Below are positions 41,442-48,929 of a stretch of DNA of 64,000 bases, piece by piece (the stretch's first letter is position 1; every line of letters starts with the position of its first letter). The notes under the pieces were generated by a model. It worked only from the letters and a program-made list of their open reading frames with translations, was not told the origin of the DNA and made no database searches. Where the stretch lies: NCBI RefSeq assembly GCF_014268455.2, contig NZ_CP077085.1, positions 2,955,001 through 3,019,000 on the forward strand. Reading direction: 5' to 3'. The position numbers and the translations under genes are program-made. This DNA comes from Pseudomonas shahriarae. GTDB taxonomy: Bacteria > Pseudomonadota > Gammaproteobacteria > Pseudomonadales > Pseudomonadaceae.

Positions 41442-43058
41442 GGCCGATTCTGTTGAAAAAGTCGGATTTTCAGATCGCCTGAACTCAGGCACGACCACCA
41501 CCGGAGAACCTACTCACCACATTGAGTGGTTTTTCGGCCCTTCGGTGACCTTTGCTGCTCTGTTATTGGGTTAATTTGAGGTTTTTTGCTTGGTGCAGGC
41601 GCACCTATCCCGTGACTGGTGGCCCTTGAGATGAAAATTTGGCCAGCCGTCGCAGGTTCTGCACCGCAGCGGCCAGCGTGAATTCATCCGTCGCACCACT
41701 CATGCCACGTAGTCTCAGGCGATCCAATTTCAGGATGCGCTTGAGGTGGGCAAACAACATTTCGACCTTTTTACGTTCGTGGCGAGAGCGCTGATATGCC
41801 GGCGTTGCTGCAATGCGCCGAGCCACATCGCGAGCGGCTTCATGGACGCTGCGAGCGATCTTGCGGAACGAAGTGTTCGGGCAGCACTTGGCTTTCATCG
41901 GACACGTAGCGCAGTCGGTCTGCCGGGATCGGAAGATGATGGTGTTGGCTTTGGTGACATGTGAACGCTCATTCTTGAAGGCTCGCCATTCGCTGCGCAA
42001 TGGGTTGCCGGCCGGGCAGCAGTATTCCTCAGTCTCTTCATGCCAGTGGAAATCGTTGCTCGAGAAACTGTCGTTCTTGCGCTCGGTTTTGTCCCATACC
42101 GGCACATGCGGCTCGATGTCCTTTTCCTCCACCATCCAGGCCAGCATCGGCGCTGTACCGTAAGCGGTGTCGCCAATGAGGCGTTCCGGCTTGATGTCGA
42201 ACTGCGTTTCGACCCGATCAATCATCGTCTTGGTACAATCGACTTCTGCGGTTCGATGAGCCGGTGTGGGTTCCACATCCATGATCACGCCGTACTCTGT
42301 ATCGATCAGATAATTCGTGGAGTAAGCGTAGAAAGCTGGGCCTCCTGGAGCAGCGGTCCAGCGGGCTTGAGGATCAGTCAGCGACAGGCGCTTCGGTAGC
42401 GTTTCGGCCAGAGCCTCTTCATCGAGTGCCTCAAGGTACTCACGCACGGCGCGGGTGCTCAGAGATGGATCGCTCCAGTTGACCTGTTCATCTCCCGGTA
42501 CGCCGCGCTGCCGACTCGCATCTGCTTTGATAATGCTGGCGTCCACTGCAAAGCCTTCGCCCTTGACCAGACCGGCGTCCATGCAGCGACGCAGCACTTC
42601 ATTGAACAACCAGCGAAACAGATCACTGTCCCGAAAACGGCCGTGTCGATTTTTGGAAAACGTCGAGTGATTGGGTACTTCATCTTCAAGGCTCAACCGG
42701 CAGAACCAGCGATACGCCAGGTTCAAATGGGCCTCTTCGCACAACCGCCGTTCGGAGCGGATGCCATAGCAGTAGCCGACGATCAGCATGCGGATCATCA
42801 GTTCAGGATCAATCGACGGACGCCCAATCGGGCTATAGAAATCGGCGAGGTAATGGCGCAGGTCGCTCAGATCAAGACACCAATCAATGTTGCGTAGAAG
42901 GTGAGTGGCTGGGATGTGATCTTCAAGGTTGAACGAGTAAAACAGCCGCTCCTGCCCACTCGATAACTGTCCCATCATGTTGCGTGCTTCCCTGCTGGCC
43001 AATGCGGAGATTTTGCCGGAGGCCAGCCAGGGGAGCTACTTTTTCAACAGAATCGGCC
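41442..43058 (-). mobile_element. IS1182-family insertion sequence
   Basis: A 1617-base element bounded by identical 21-base inverted ends (41442-41462 and 43038-43058), each containing GATTCTGTTGAAAAAGT. It carries one intact transposase gene on the minus strand. A single extra copy of the end lies at 50446-50466. I cannot fix a target duplication: 'TTTA' precedes the left end and 'GATA' follows the right one. Confidence 0.88.
41605..42978 (-). CDS. IS1182-type DDE transposase
   Basis: A 457-residue transposase of the IS5/IS1182 superfamily. The DDE residues are in VDASIIKADAS, IGDTAYG and KKVEMLFAHLKR. The N-terminal DUF772 part (SFNLEDHIPATHLLRNIDWC) and the C-terminal zinc-like segment with CCPAGNPLRSEW and CPMKAKCCPN are typical. 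I take ATG 42976-42978 with AGGGAAG before it; TTG 43002 would add eight residues. The gene appears intact and may be active. Confidence 0.9.
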   Translation of the reverse strand: MMGQLSSGQERLFYSFNLEDHIPATHLLRNIDWCLDLSDLRHYLADFYSPIGRPSIDPELMIRMLIVGYCYGIRSERRLCEEAHLNLAYRWFCRLSLEDEVPNHSTFSKNRHGRFRDSDLFRWLFNEVLRRCMDAGLVKGEGFAVDASIIKADASRQRGVPGDEQVNWSDPSLSTRAVREYLEALDEEALAETLPKRLSLTDPQARWTAAPGGPAFYAYSTNYLIDTEYGVIMDVEPTPAHRTAEVDCTKTMIDRVETQFDIKPERLIGDTAYGTAPMLAWMVEEKDIEPHVPVWDKTERKNDSFSSNDFHWHEETEEYCCPAGNPLRSEWRAFKNERSHVTKANTIIFRSRQTDCATCPMKAKCCPNTSFRKIARSVHEAARDVARRIAATPAYQRSRHERKKVEMLFAHLKRILKLDRLRLRGMSGATDEFTLAAAVQNLRRLAKFSSQGPPVTG

Positions 43059-45542: not shown

Positions 45543-46463
45543 TCATATTAGTGCTGAGCCGCGTTTACATTCGAGGCTTTCACCTAAGCCGCGGATCATT
45601 TCCATCAAGGCCTTCACCCGCATTGGCAAATTTCCGGCCGGGTACACCGCGTGCATCTGTGGGCTCTCACCGTTGCTGGAGGTGAGCTTGTACTCAGGAC
45701 AAACCCGAAACAGGCGTCCCGCATCCACTTCGGGCTCCGCCATCCAATCTGCCAAGCGGGCGATCCCGACGCCCGCCAGGGCTGCCTGGAATACCGCCAG
45801 GCCGGAGCTGAAACGAAATTTTGGATGCACCCGAAAGCTGATGGCCTGCTCTTCACTGCGAAAATTCCACTCCTTGAGAATCCGTGGCGCCGTATGCAGG
45901 ATCAGCGAATGCGACTCCAGTGCCTCGATGGAGTCGGGCATGCCGTTGCGCTCCAGGTAGTCGGGGCTGGCATACAGATAACGTGAGTAACTCCAGAGCG
46001 CAAAGCCGATCAAGTCGCTGGATTGTGGGAACGCACCGCGAATCGAGAAGTCCAGCTTGCTCTTGGCCGGGTCGATGATCTCATCGGTGAAAATCACATC
46101 GATGTTAACGTCCGGATAACGCTCGCAGTACTGTGCGATCAACCGGGGCAATACCCCGTGTCCGAGAACCTCGGGGGCGGAAAAACGGATCCAGCCAGAG
46201 GCCAGGCCGCTGAGACCGGCCAGGTCTTCATCCACCTCACGTTGCAGATCGAGCATTTTGTGCGCGTGGGGCAATAAGCATTCACCCGCTTCGGTCAAGG
46301 TCACGGCATTGGACGAGCGATGGAACAACTTGAGCCCCACACTTTCCTCCAGGGCTTGAACGGCACGGGTCAGTGCGCTGGGGGAGCGCCCCAGAGTCCG
46401 TGCCGCGGCGACGAAGCTGCGCTTGCGAGCCACGGTCGCGAAGGCTTCAAGTTCCCCCAACAT
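45543..46463 (-). CDS. LysR regulator of the hydroxylase operon
   Basis: A 306-residue LysR regulator, with HTH MLGELEAFATVARKRSFVAA to RAVQALEESVGLKLFHR and a co-inducer domain. The frame is open to 46580, but ATG 46461-46463 gives the family start. It is divergent from the oxygenase operon, which it most likely controls. CATTGCA repeats at 46485 and 46507, 22 bases apart, may be its sites. Confidence 0.85.
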   Translation of the reverse strand: MLGELEAFATVARKRSFVAAARTLGRSPSALTRAVQALEESVGLKLFHRSSNAVTLTEAGECLLPHAHKMLDLQREVDEDLAGLSGLASGWIRFSAPEVLGHGVLPRLIAQYCERYPDVNIDVIFTDEIIDPAKSKLDFSIRGAFPQSSDLIGFALWSYSRYLYASPDYLERNGMPDSIEALESHSLILHTAPRILKEWNFRSEEQAISFRVHPKFRFSSGLAVFQAALAGVGIARLADWMAEPEVDAGRLFRVCPEYKLTSSNGESPQMHAVYPAGNLPMRVKALMEMIRGLGESLECKRGSALI

Positions 46464-46484
46464 ATTCAACGCCACTCTCCACCT

Positions 46485-46513
46485 CATTGCATTTTTCACA
46501 ACGCGGCATTGCA
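46485..46513. promoter_or_regulatory. Candidate LysR-site direct repeats
   Basis: CATTGCA occurs at 46485-46491 and again at 46507-46513, 22 bases apart (two helical turns), in the 121-base region between the divergent LysR and oxygenase genes. This spacing fits a LysR tetramer. TTGCATTTTTCACAA at 46488 has T-N11-A character. Confidence 0.45.
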
Positions 46514-46584
46514 ACACAAAAAAGGTCCTTCCGTTAACCTTCCCGTTCAACCCACAAGGATGGGGCAAACAGGAGCGCAAGGAC

Positions 46585-47670
46585 GTGTCGAAGCTGGAAG
46601 AAGTAATCGGGAAAGCCGCAGCGGGTGTTGATGAAGTAATTCATGAATGGCAGGAACAAAATTCAGTGACGTCGACCCGACGGGAGATACCGCAAATTCA
46701 TCTGTCGCTCGAAGAACAACGCACACTTCAGGCCGGTCTGGCATCGCTGGACGTGACCGATAGCGCCTCGGGTATCCGCCACATGCCGGTCCTGGGGTTG
46801 TTGCTGGAAAGTGTCCTGTGCACCGAGAAAATCCAGCAGCTGCGCAATTTTCCACAGGCCCCTGAGGTGGCGATGATCATCAGGGGGCTGCCGCTGGACC
46901 CGCAACTGCCCGCCACGCCCTATGACCTGGAGCCGGGTATCGAGAACGTGCCGACGCTGGCCGGGGCTATTTTGTCCGTGCTGCAAACTCTGCAAACCCA
47001 TCCGCTGGCGTACGACGGTGAGAGCAACGACACAGTGTTCCGTCACGTATCGCCCAAGCATAAGCGAGAGACCGAAAAGAGTTCCTATGGCTCGCGCGCG
47101 GATCTGGACATGCATGTCGACAACCCTCACTTGCCTTTGACCTGCGAACCCGTCTCGCAGTTGTCGGCCTGTCCGGAGTACCTGTCCCTGACCGGCCTGC
47201 GCTGCGAGCTCGACGTGCCGACGCGCATCGTCGCAATTGACGAGGTGCTGGCCATTCTCCCGGCCTGCGTCGAAGAAGAATTGTCACGACCGAACTTCAC
47301 CGTTCGCCGACCGGCCTCCTTCGGCAAACAGGGGAATGTGCTGGAAAACGTCCCCTTGCTGTACAGAAGCGCAAACGATGGCCTGTATTGCCGCTACAAC
47401 AAAGCGAGTGTCGAAACGACCTGCGCCAATGCGCAGTTTGCCCTCCAGCTGTTCGCCGCCGCTGCCAATCATCCCGATGTCGTGCACCACATACTGCTGC
47501 AACCAGGGGACATGCTGATCTTCAAAAACCAGCAAACCCTGCATGCCCGGGATGGTTTTACACCCCGTTACGACGGCCGTGATCGCTGGATGTTACGTGT
47601 CTTCGGGGTCAATGATCCGGCACGCGTGGTGCCGCTGGACCCTCATCAACCCTACATAGTCAGAGCCTGA
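46585..47670 (+). CDS. Fe(II)/2-oxoglutarate amino acid hydroxylase, CAS-like
   Basis: A 361-residue TauD/clavaminate-synthase-like dioxygenase, similar in length and motif layout to the free L-arginine or L-asparagine hydroxylases VioC and AsnO. The iron triad is H177-x-D179 (MHVDNPHL) and H320 (TLHARDGFTPRYDGRDRW); R334 lies 14 residues after the distal histidine, as in AsnO for 2-oxoglutarate binding. Here the first acidic ligand is Asp, not Glu. GTG 46585 has AGGAG nine bases upstream and is favoured over ORF starts within the LysR gene. It heads an operon with the permease and the deacylase. Confidence 0.82.
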   Translation: MSKLEEVIGKAAAGVDEVIHEWQEQNSVTSTRREIPQIHLSLEEQRTLQAGLASLDVTDSASGIRHMPVLGLLLESVLCTEKIQQLRNFPQAPEVAMIIRGLPLDPQLPATPYDLEPGIENVPTLAGAILSVLQTLQTHPLAYDGESNDTVFRHVSPKHKRETEKSSYGSRADLDMHVDNPHLPLTCEPVSQLSACPEYLSLTGLRCELDVPTRIVAIDEVLAILPACVEEELSRPNFTVRRPASFGKQGNVLENVPLLYRSANDGLYCRYNKASVETTCANAQFALQLFAAAANHPDVVHHILLQPGDMLIFKNQQTLHARDGFTPRYDGRDRWMLRVFGVNDPARVVPLDPHQPYIVRA

Positions 47671-47674
47671 TTTC

Positions 47675-48433
47675 ATGGTCGATATTGTCATCCTTTGCGT
47701 GTTCGCCTTCGCCGCCGGCCTGATCGATGCGGCGGTGGGCGGCGGCGGACTGATCCAGATTCCCGCGCTGTTCAACGTGCTACCCAGCGCTCAACCGGCG
47801 GCGCTGCTGGGTACCAACAAGGTTGCGGCCGCCTGCGGCACGGCATTCGCGGCTCGGTCCTTCGTGCGTAAGGTGGTGATTGACTGGGGTCTTGTGATCC
47901 CCGCGGCCTGCGCGGCTTTTGTCATGGCCTTCTTCGGAGCCGCCACGGTGTCGTTCGTACCCCAGTCGATGATCCGGCCGGCGGTGCTGGTGTTGATTGT
48001 ACTGATGGCGATCTACACCTTCTGGAAAAAAGATTTCGGCGCCCTGCACAAACCCATGCGTATCGGTACCAAGGAAAAACTGCTGGCGATCGTCATCGGC
48101 GGTGCCATCGGTTTCTACGATGGTCTGTTCGGCCCCGGTACTGGCAGCTTCCTGATCTTCCTGTTCATCCGCTGCTTCGCCTTCGACTTTCTTCATGCCT
48201 CGGCATCGGCCAAGCTAGTGAACATCGCGACCAACGTAGCGGCACTGATGTTCTTCATTCCGACGGGTAACGTGCTCTACCTGATCGCAATCCCCATGGC
48301 GGCATTCAACATTCTGGGCGCGCTCACTGGCACCTGGCTGGCGGTTCATAAAGGCGTGCCCTTTGTCCGGGCTCTATTCCTGGTGTTGCTGGTGATTCTG
48401 ATCAGCAAACTGTCCTACGACCTGCTCCTGTAA
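47675..48433 (+). CDS. TSUP (TauE/SafE) family exporter
   Basis: A 252-residue inner-membrane protein with about eight helices of the sulfite/sulfonate exporter family. The hallmark GLIDAAVGGGGLIQIPAL opens the first half and GFYDGLFGPGTGSFLIF the second. TSUP members export sulfite, sulfoacetate or organic anions. It lies four bases after the hydroxylase stop and 16 bases before the deacylase gene, so it should export the product or by-product of that pathway (inference). Confidence 0.85.
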   Translation: MVDIVILCVFAFAAGLIDAAVGGGGLIQIPALFNVLPSAQPAALLGTNKVAAACGTAFAARSFVRKVVIDWGLVIPAACAAFVMAFFGAATVSFVPQSMIRPAVLVLIVLMAIYTFWKKDFGALHKPMRIGTKEKLLAIVIGGAIGFYDGLFGPGTGSFLIFLFIRCFAFDFLHASASAKLVNIATNVAALMFFIPTGNVLYLIAIPMAAFNILGALTGTWLAVHKGVPFVRALFLVLLVILISKLSYDLLL

Positions 48434-48449
48434 ACCAGAGGAAAACTCC

Positions 48450-48929
48450 ATGCATCCCATGTTCGATCGCCTCGTGGCACTACTCGATGCCCGCTCAGCC
48501 TCCTACCGGGTGTTGATGCACGATGCCGAGGGCCAGTCGGCGCGCGTCGCCGAAATCCGTGGCACCGAGCCCGGCCAGGGCGCGAAGGCCATGCTTTGCT
48601 CCCTCAAGGGGCAGGCCGGACCCTATGCACTGGTGATACTGCCGGGCGACCAGAAGCTGGACATGAAGAAAGTCGGAGCGGCCCTGGGCGGCAAAAAAGC
48701 CGAGCTGGTGAAGGCCGAAACCGCCATGGAACTGACCGGGTGCCGGATCGGCGCCATCCCTCCTTTTGTCTTCGATGAGCGAATTCAATTGATCGTCGAT
48801 CCGGCCTTGACCACAGGCTACGCTGAAATAGCCTTCAACGCGGGGCGGCTGGATGCGTCGATGGTGCTCGATACGCAGGATTATCTGGCGATTGCCATGC
48901 CTCGATTGCTGGATATCAGCCAGGCCTGA
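48450..48929 (+). CDS. YbaK-type aminoacyl-tRNA deacylase
   Basis: A 159-residue protein of the YbaK/ProX (INS) superfamily, free-standing trans-editing domains that hydrolyse misacylated tRNAs. Lysine K46, the conserved catalytic lysine of this family, is in GQGAKAMLC; VILPGDQKLDMKKVGAAL, MELTGCRIGAIPPF and VDPALTTGYAEIAFNAG are the other core segments. Being last in the operon with a free-amino-acid-hydroxylase suggests that it clears tRNA charged with the modified amino acid. Activity is inferred, not shown. Confidence 0.88.
   Translation: MHPMFDRLVALLDARSASYRVLMHDAEGQSARVAEIRGTEPGQGAKAMLCSLKGQAGPYALVILPGDQKLDMKKVGAALGGKKAELVKAETAMELTGCRIGAIPPFVFDERIQLIVDPALTTGYAEIAFNAGRLDASMVLDTQDYLAIAMPRLLDISQA

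Follow-up and report, generated by a model that had tools for sequence, protein, structure and literature searches.

A conserved hydroxylase-permease-tRNA deacylase operon of Pseudomonas and its possible role as a 3-hydroxyaspartate antimetabolite cassette

The genome of Pseudomonas shahriarae consists of a single contig of 6.05 Mb, from which we analyzed a stretch of 64,000 nucleotides (here called the window). Positions 45543..48929 of the window hold an operon of three genes, encoding an Fe(II)/2-oxoglutarate hydroxylase (HYD), a permease of the TSUP (TauE/SafE) family, and an aminoacyl-tRNA deacylase, together with a divergent gene for a LysR-family regulator. An initial annotation of this DNA had described the same arrangement, with gaps of 4 bases between HYD and TSUP and 16 bases between TSUP and the deacylase, and both coordinates and spacings were confirmed. 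The features are as follows (positions are those of the window).

45543..46463, minus strand: LysR-family regulator, divergent from the operon; Pfam HTH_1 and LysR_substrate domains.
46487..46514, no strand: inverted repeat TTGCA-N18-TGCAA in the LysR-HYD intergenic region; possible LysR site.
46585..47670, plus strand: HYD, clavaminate synthase-like (CAS-like) Fe(II)/2-oxoglutarate hydroxylase, predicted to be an L-aspartate 3-hydroxylase from sequence matches to AsnO and KDO1, fold matches, and residues.
Key residues of HYD, numbered from the GTG start: H177, D179, H320, R334, R338, and N272.
47675..48433, plus strand: TSUP (TauE/SafE) permease (PF01925), predicted product exporter; adjoins HYD in 22/22 loci.
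48450..48929, plus strand: YeaK/ProXp-ST1-like aminoacyl-tRNA deacylase (PF04073, K46), predicted to clear hydroxyaspartyl-tRNA, from its identity to YeaK and its place in the tree; present in 20/22 loci.

The LysR gene product scored 117.2 and 68.6 bits against its two Pfam domains, and its gene has two in-frame candidate ATG start codons, at 46463 and 46487. The inverted repeat is a possible binding site for this regulator: both arms are unchanged in 13 of 14 aligned loci (a conservation given without comparison to chance expectation), and the repeat is missing in locus L119, which is also without LysR. HYD starts with the GTG at 46585, and the same start site was found in 13 other loci with the three genes (trio loci), 11 with GTG and 2 with ATG. 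The TSUP product matched Pfam TauE with 156.6 bits (cutoff, 32.6), which upheld the earlier assignment, and the deacylase matched tRNA_edit with 88.4 bits (cutoff, 25.5).

Conservation of the unit was surveyed in 398 Pseudomonas genomes, counting HYD copies at ≥63% identity. Some HYD match was present in 85 of them, and 22, the P. shahriarae genome included, passed this threshold. TSUP adjoins HYD in all 22 loci, the deacylase comes next in 20, and a divergent LysR gene is found in 21, being missing in L052 only. The TSUP frame is broken in L048 and L055 and that of the deacylase in L048, a draft genome with 78% completeness. A scan of named genomes with two short motifs only yielded 63 HYD loci, biased to HYD with HVDNP or FKNQ, among which the 30 of the trio type all carried HYD, TSUP, and deacylase (67 to 94% identity), one of them with broken frames (L117, the same broken contig as L048). 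The genus and named sets overlap, and their 52 trio rows, including that of the window, correspond to 37 distinct HYD sequences. Where relatives of the operon are named, they belong to Pseudomonas, and P. brenneri DSM 15294 is among the nearest (HYD, 94%; TSUP, 100%; deacylase, 100%). The window genes for TPR, GNAT, DJ-1, and M20 proteins were found in none of 51 trio loci, and those for DUF4432 and the transposase in two each, in both cases from one contig present in two copies. Given this near absence of the window neighbors from trio loci, the association of HYD with TSUP (22/22) and of the complete trio (20/22) indicates linkage beyond chance, and the co-occurrence that the initial annotation had proposed to look for extends well past one strain.

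Purifying selection acts on all three genes in each of 10 comparisons, with dN/dS (nonsynonymous to synonymous substitution rate) ratios of 0.14 to 0.29 for HYD, which is the fastest changing, 0.04 to 0.11 for TSUP, and 0.04 to 0.16 for the deacylase. HYD is broken in four more loci, of which L075 and L077 keep intact LysR, TSUP, and deacylase genes, L076 keeps TSUP alone intact, and L078 has LysR, TSUP, and deacylase all decayed. Loss of the maker with retention of the protectors, as in L075 and L077, fits a producer/immunity unit, two cases being few and possibly recent.

By its facial triad, its 2-oxoglutarate arginine, and its fold, HYD is a CAS-like Fe(II)/2-oxoglutarate oxygenase. Among PDB sequences, it matched AsnO at 3.3e-18, and a profile search gave KDO1 at 6e-33 and AsnO at 1.4e-31. 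With the structure model (predicted local distance difference test [pLDDT] of 90.2), the best 50 PDB matches in Foldseek were all CAS-like amino-acid oxygenases (KDO1, KDO5, AsnO, NapI, OrfP, VioC, CmnC, and clavaminate synthase). H177, D179, and H320 (the triad) and R334 (the arginine), proposed earlier and correct in the numbering from GTG, are present in 52/52 trio rows. HYD fell below every NCBIfam equivalog cutoff searched (GntD, 82.1 versus 345). R338 is invariant in the HYD alignment and lies opposite Arg305 of AsnO (chain Arg329, chain numbers being the published ones plus 24), described as contacting the substrate alpha carboxylate (PMC6817910); this placement is suggestive of a HYD predicted to act on a free amino acid.

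A single position points to the substrate. In both alignments, HYD N272 stands against AsnO chain residue 265, which is D241 in the published numbering, and HYD thus lacks the Asp241 that is a feature of the asparagine 3-hydroxylase. The residue is N in 52/52 trio rows (37 distinct). In the related group of loci with a YdfG-like dehydrogenase (see below), it is D in all 35 scorable of 37 rows, the other two being gapped at most scored columns. The 34 other HYD rows have 21 D, 5 S, 4 N, 2 Y, 1 A, and 1 gap; the row of L157 is fragmentary. A table in PMC9968057 gives AsnO D241N as converting L-aspartate to L-threo-hydroxyaspartate, and, together with N272 in the trio enzymes, this makes aspartate the predicted substrate of HYD. 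In the HYD tree, the enzymes of the deacylase group, among which L054 and L055 fall, are separate from those of the YdfG group, which L125 joins; the two clades have supports of 100/100 and 100/99.

The third gene had been called a YbaK-type deacylase with K46. The lysine and the tRNA_edit family stood; the YbaK type did not, the score against the YbaK family TIGR00011 being 60.6 bits, below the cutoff of 153.25, which rules out YbaK proper. The protein is 47% identical over the match to Escherichia coli YeaK (128 bits), and E. coli YbaK scores 45 bits in the PDB set. The full alignment with YeaK gives 45%, with K46, G101, and P105 invariant, and K46 is invariant across 15 aligned deacylases. 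E. coli YeaK, which we take to be ProXp-ST1, is annotated as a mischarged aminoacyl-tRNA deacylase. As judged from its sequence, the operon deacylase is YeaK/ProXp-ST1-like, nearer YeaK than YbaK. ProXp-ST1 and ProXp-ST2 are described as hydrolyzing Ser- and Thr-tRNAs over a broad tRNA range, and the ProXp-ST1-related FthB as clearing fluorothreonyl-tRNA (PMC11295145); the amino acids edited by all of these bear a beta-hydroxyl. The K73/K74 pair was considered as a binder of acidic side chains and dropped, as it is also found in E. coli YbaK and is absent from L162, a Pseudomonas relative described below. The structure model of the deacylase (pLDDT of 44.5) was not used as evidence.

A second indication of the product came from the neighborhoods of deacylase relatives. 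A plasmid search gave 27 records with a relative, and 12 neighborhoods were examined. The 5 records at 50 to 58% identity all lie near a threo-3-hydroxyaspartate ammonia-lyase (by annotation in L165 and by tblastn, at 69 to 78%, in L164, L166, L204, and L205), and the 7 other neighborhoods showed no such link (L167, L171 to L174, and L176 by tblastn; L175 by annotation). Across 398 genomes of the phylum, 18 deacylase matches reached ≥149 bits, our own included. Of the 17 others, 3 are linked to the ammonia-lyase (L177, L178, and L180), 10 resemble E. coli YeaK most closely, and 4 are of other kinds; no ammonia-lyase link was seen in these 14 or in two weaker partial matches. The fullest cluster, L162, came from the genus search and combines the ammonia-lyase (556.7 bits; cutoff, 452) with a type II asparaginase (379.2; cutoff, 314.3), a dicarboxylate symporter, RidA, and a BhcD-like reductase below its cutoff. 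This linkage, seen in 9 loci (L162, L164, L165, L166, L177, L178, L180, L204, and L205), suggests hydroxyaspartate as the likely product, on a line independent of N272. The P. shahriarae genome has no threo-3-hydroxyaspartate ammonia-lyase above the cutoff (best, 267 versus 452). Four Pseudomonas genomes (L158 to L161) carry a deacylase at 75 to 78% identity with the operon not alongside.

The deacylase tree was built from 31 chosen rows, excluding L174, L192, and L193 as long branches and without most trio copies and L175, L181, L186, L188, L189, L194, L195, L204, and L205. The operon deacylases and the solo ones of Pseudomonas (100/99) are sister to a group made of L164, L165, L166, L177, L178, L180, and the unlinked L190 (96/90). 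Enteric YeaK and FthB fall outside this joint clade, and in the unrooted tree the branch that sets the operon deacylase apart from enteric YeaK has a support of 91/85.

We read the operon, with a probability of roughly 0.55, as a small antimetabolite cassette, in which aspartate is hydroxylated and the product exported and cleared from tRNA. HYD would place a hydroxyl on the beta carbon of a free amino acid, with L-aspartate as the likeliest candidate (L-aspartate + 2-oxoglutarate + O2 → L-threo-3-hydroxyaspartate), and TSUP, a permease of the anion type, would export the acidic product. What remains inside the cell would be partly charged onto tRNA, with tRNA-Asp or tRNA-Asn as the expected acceptor, and the deacylase would hydrolyze the beta-hydroxy-aminoacyl-tRNA before its entry into protein. 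The LysR protein would regulate the unit. Threo-hydroxyaspartate has been described as an antibiotic amino acid. Beta-hydroxyaspartate is listed as an inhibitor of PanD (PMC7770189), and competitors might accordingly be harmed in several ways.

HYD and TSUP also occur together with other third genes. The 33 other named HYD loci have a TSUP match in 29 cases, followed in 25 by a YdfG-like dehydrogenase (325.3 versus a cutoff of 411); in this YdfG group, the divergent regulator is MocR-like. By annotation, Serratia symbiotica plasmid pSsAf2.3-2 (L170) has the order HYD-TSUP-GNAT and Klebsiella pneumoniae plasmid pBio19 (L169) the order HYD-TSUP-small open reading frame-GNAT; the GNAT of these plasmid cassettes had no NCBIfam match. 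Of the 79 plasmid records that matched HYD, 40 are from Klebsiella, and the neighborhood was examined in one of these. A HIBADH-like dehydrogenase, below the cutoffs, is present in the cassettes of a Vibrio plasmid and of Parendozoicomonas (L129) and, by eye, in two Rickettsiales contigs. L154, labeled as a metagenome-assembled genome (MAG) of Rickettsia typhi, has HYD-TSUP and a HIBADH-like gene, and its label may be a binning error. The Deefgea cluster (L125:7699-10523) holds TrpB and TrpA, and that of Parendozoicomonas (L129:8882-10841) TrpB plus TrpA by eye; with the cluster copy included, trpB above the cutoff occurs twice in the Deefgea genome and three times in that of Parendozoicomonas. 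Finally, in a Burkholderiaceae MAG (L132:1294-4783), HYD lies without TSUP and with a BenE-type transporter and a serine hydroxymethyltransferase (SHMT; glyA), one of the two SHMT copies of that genome.

HYD-TSUP was thus seen in Pseudomonas, Serratia, Deefgea, Parendozoicomonas, Vibrio, the Rickettsiales contigs, and the Klebsiella plasmid. We tentatively suggest, at somewhat less than even odds, that the pair is the core of modular beta-hydroxy-amino-acid antimetabolite cassettes with a swapped self-protection gene, the window cassette making L-threo-3-hydroxyaspartate and protecting itself by editing of hydroxyaspartyl-tRNA. The swapped genes would be the tRNA deacylase, the YdfG-like or HIBADH-like dehydrogenase, GNAT, TrpB/TrpA copies, and, in the TSUP-less relative, SHMT. 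Spare copies of serine-using pyridoxal phosphate enzymes would fit if such enzymes are what a serine-like amino acid targets; mouse serine racemase is reported to be inhibited by L-erythro-beta-hydroxyasparagine (Ki, 40 µM) (PMC8071972).

The more distant Pseudomonas HYD loci that we fetched (L069 to L074 and L079 to L094; the weaker genus matches were fetched in part) have TSUP beside HYD in L091 to L093 only. Other distant loci show, by eye, LysE-type exporters or a carbamoyltransferase alongside. In L069 to L074 and L084, the neighbors look carbamoyltransferase-like, ATP-grasp-like, and LysE-like by eye, and HYD there perhaps serves other amino-acid natural products. As for the neighborhood of the operon in the window, the TPR, GNAT, DJ-1, DUF4432, and M20 genes were ruled out as members (0 to 2 of 51 trio loci). 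A transposase-like open reading frame lies at 41605-43002 of the window, and a fragmented copy of it (93 to 94%) is found near the operon in a P. brenneri contig (L035, the same as L095). Further downstream of HYD and TSUP in L054 and L055, there are AzlC/AzlD-exporter-like genes (by eye) on the same strand.

Several observations weigh against the proposed hydroxyaspartate cassette. L054 and L055 carry HYD and TSUP without the deacylase, and the broken TSUP frame of L055 lowered our confidence further. L190 and four solo deacylases show no ammonia-lyase link, the branch joining operon and ammonia-lyase-linked deacylases has a support of 91/85 and is not starred, and L162, which is ammonia-lyase linked, falls in with the enteric YeaK proteins, on a long branch. 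HYD of L091 to L094 likewise has Asn at the position of AsnO D241, and this residue could suit another acid, e.g., glutamate. The genome of Parendozoicomonas also has two SHMT, none of them in the HYD cluster, so that a second copy proves little and the spare-target argument is weakened. In the open-license literature searched, we found no report of a bacterial synthetase charging hydroxyaspartate and none of hydroxyaspartate inhibiting bacterial growth.

The same scheme could work with a different product, such as 3-hydroxyasparagine, 3-hydroxyglutamate, or another beta-hydroxy amino acid. Among enzymes of solved structure, AsnO and the lysine hydroxylase KDO1 are the nearest, the ammonia-lyase clusters L162 and L165 include an asparaginase, so that hydroxyasparagine could feed them, and ProXp-ST1 proteins handle beta-hydroxy amino acids in general. 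However, Asn replaces Asp at position 272 in 52/52 trio rows, which, on the precedent of AsnO D241N, argues for an acidic side chain, and we regard another product as somewhat unlikely. That the product is instead a nutrient, signal, or metal ligand, with the deacylase only limiting a side effect on translation, would agree with the small size and sporadic distribution of the cassette (22/398 genomes), but the sister cassettes with an extra trpB or glyA look like carriers of spare targets (extra copies also being found outside clusters), and on balance this seems unlikely.

A role in defense is less probable still. Here, HYD would alter a toxic amino acid from outside, TSUP expel the product, and the deacylase clear mischarged tRNA. 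This would agree with the deacylase relatives found in catabolic clusters with uptake symporters, with L075 and L077, in which LysR, TSUP, and deacylase persist though HYD is broken, and with the existence of solo deacylases. Yet no gene for uptake or breakdown belongs to the trio, the known CAS-like enzymes matched by HYD make hydroxylated or desaturated amino acids, and the branch on which the deacylase lies suggests that the hazard is a hydroxylated amino acid, one that HYD itself would create; we therefore consider detoxification improbable. Very improbable is a sulfonate metabolism with HYD as a TauD-like dioxygenase, TSUP as a sulfite or sulfonate exporter, and an incidental deacylase. 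The Pfam family names TauD and TauE evoke it, but the TauD match (PF02668, 40.2 bits; cutoff, 27) is C-terminal, limited to residues 275-339, the sequence, profile, and fold matches are all to CAS-like enzymes, which led us to reject a TauD-type enzyme, and the deacylase is retained in 20/22 loci.

The initial annotation had read the operon as a possible make, export, and self-protect system for a modified amino acid and knew of no description of the trio. The scheme survives, now with the conservation of the unit, the YeaK/ProXp-ST1 kind of deacylase, the links of deacylase relatives to 3-hydroxyaspartate catabolism, and the protective-looking third-slot genes of the sister cassettes in its favor. 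The trio as a unit did not turn up in the open-license literature searched, but the principle is not new, since the protection logic is already known from 4-fluorothreonine producers. Among our plasmid neighborhoods, L171 presumably holds the fth maker, exporter, and deacylase, as judged from its reading frames. In these producers, the deacylase FthB and the exporter FthC are described as protective (PMC7408626, PMC7162832, PMC11295145): when FthC is lost, less of the amino acid is secreted and more stays in the cell, and FthB acts against fluorothreonyl-tRNA (PMC7408626). The fth locus of Streptomyces cattleya and the operon of the window both bring together genes for making a beta-hydroxy amino acid, for its export, and for a ProXp-ST1-related deacylase, the roles in the window being predicted from the gene families. 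They differ in the maker (4-fluorothreonine transaldolase versus a 2-oxoglutarate oxygenase), in the exporter (EamA type in appearance, by eye, versus TSUP), and in the deacylase, FthB being 38.7% identical to that of the window and elsewhere in the tree. E. coli YeaK is the nearest named relative of the window deacylase, but yeaK in L167 has no hydroxylase or TSUP alongside, and the operon deacylase groups with the ammonia-lyase-linked ones (91/85). HYD shares fold, facial triad, and arginines with AsnO, KDO1, VioC, GntD, and clavaminate synthase and departs from AsnO at N272 (D241 in AsnO). Like the canavanyl-tRNA deacylase CtdA of Pseudomonas canavaninivorans, the window deacylase would be a stand-alone editor shielding a Pseudomonas from a nonprotein amino acid, but CtdA is described as a B3/4 editing-domain protein that protects a consumer (PMC10018355), whereas the window deacylase would protect a maker.

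Compared with these systems, the novelty lies in the enzyme used as maker, in the family of the transporter, in the branch of the deacylase, in the product predicted here, and in a third slot whose gene is apparently exchangeable. We know of no dedicated hydroxyaspartyl-tRNA editor. If our proposal holds, tRNA editing would be seen to protect a second kind of producer chemistry, one whose predicted product has a known structure, and a branch of ProXp-ST1-like proteins would have a role in hydroxyaspartate protection in both makers and consumers. A generic annotation of TauD, TauE, and YbaK would become in this way a testable antimetabolite cassette, and, if the swapping of the third gene really serves protection, genome sequences could reveal what the products target.

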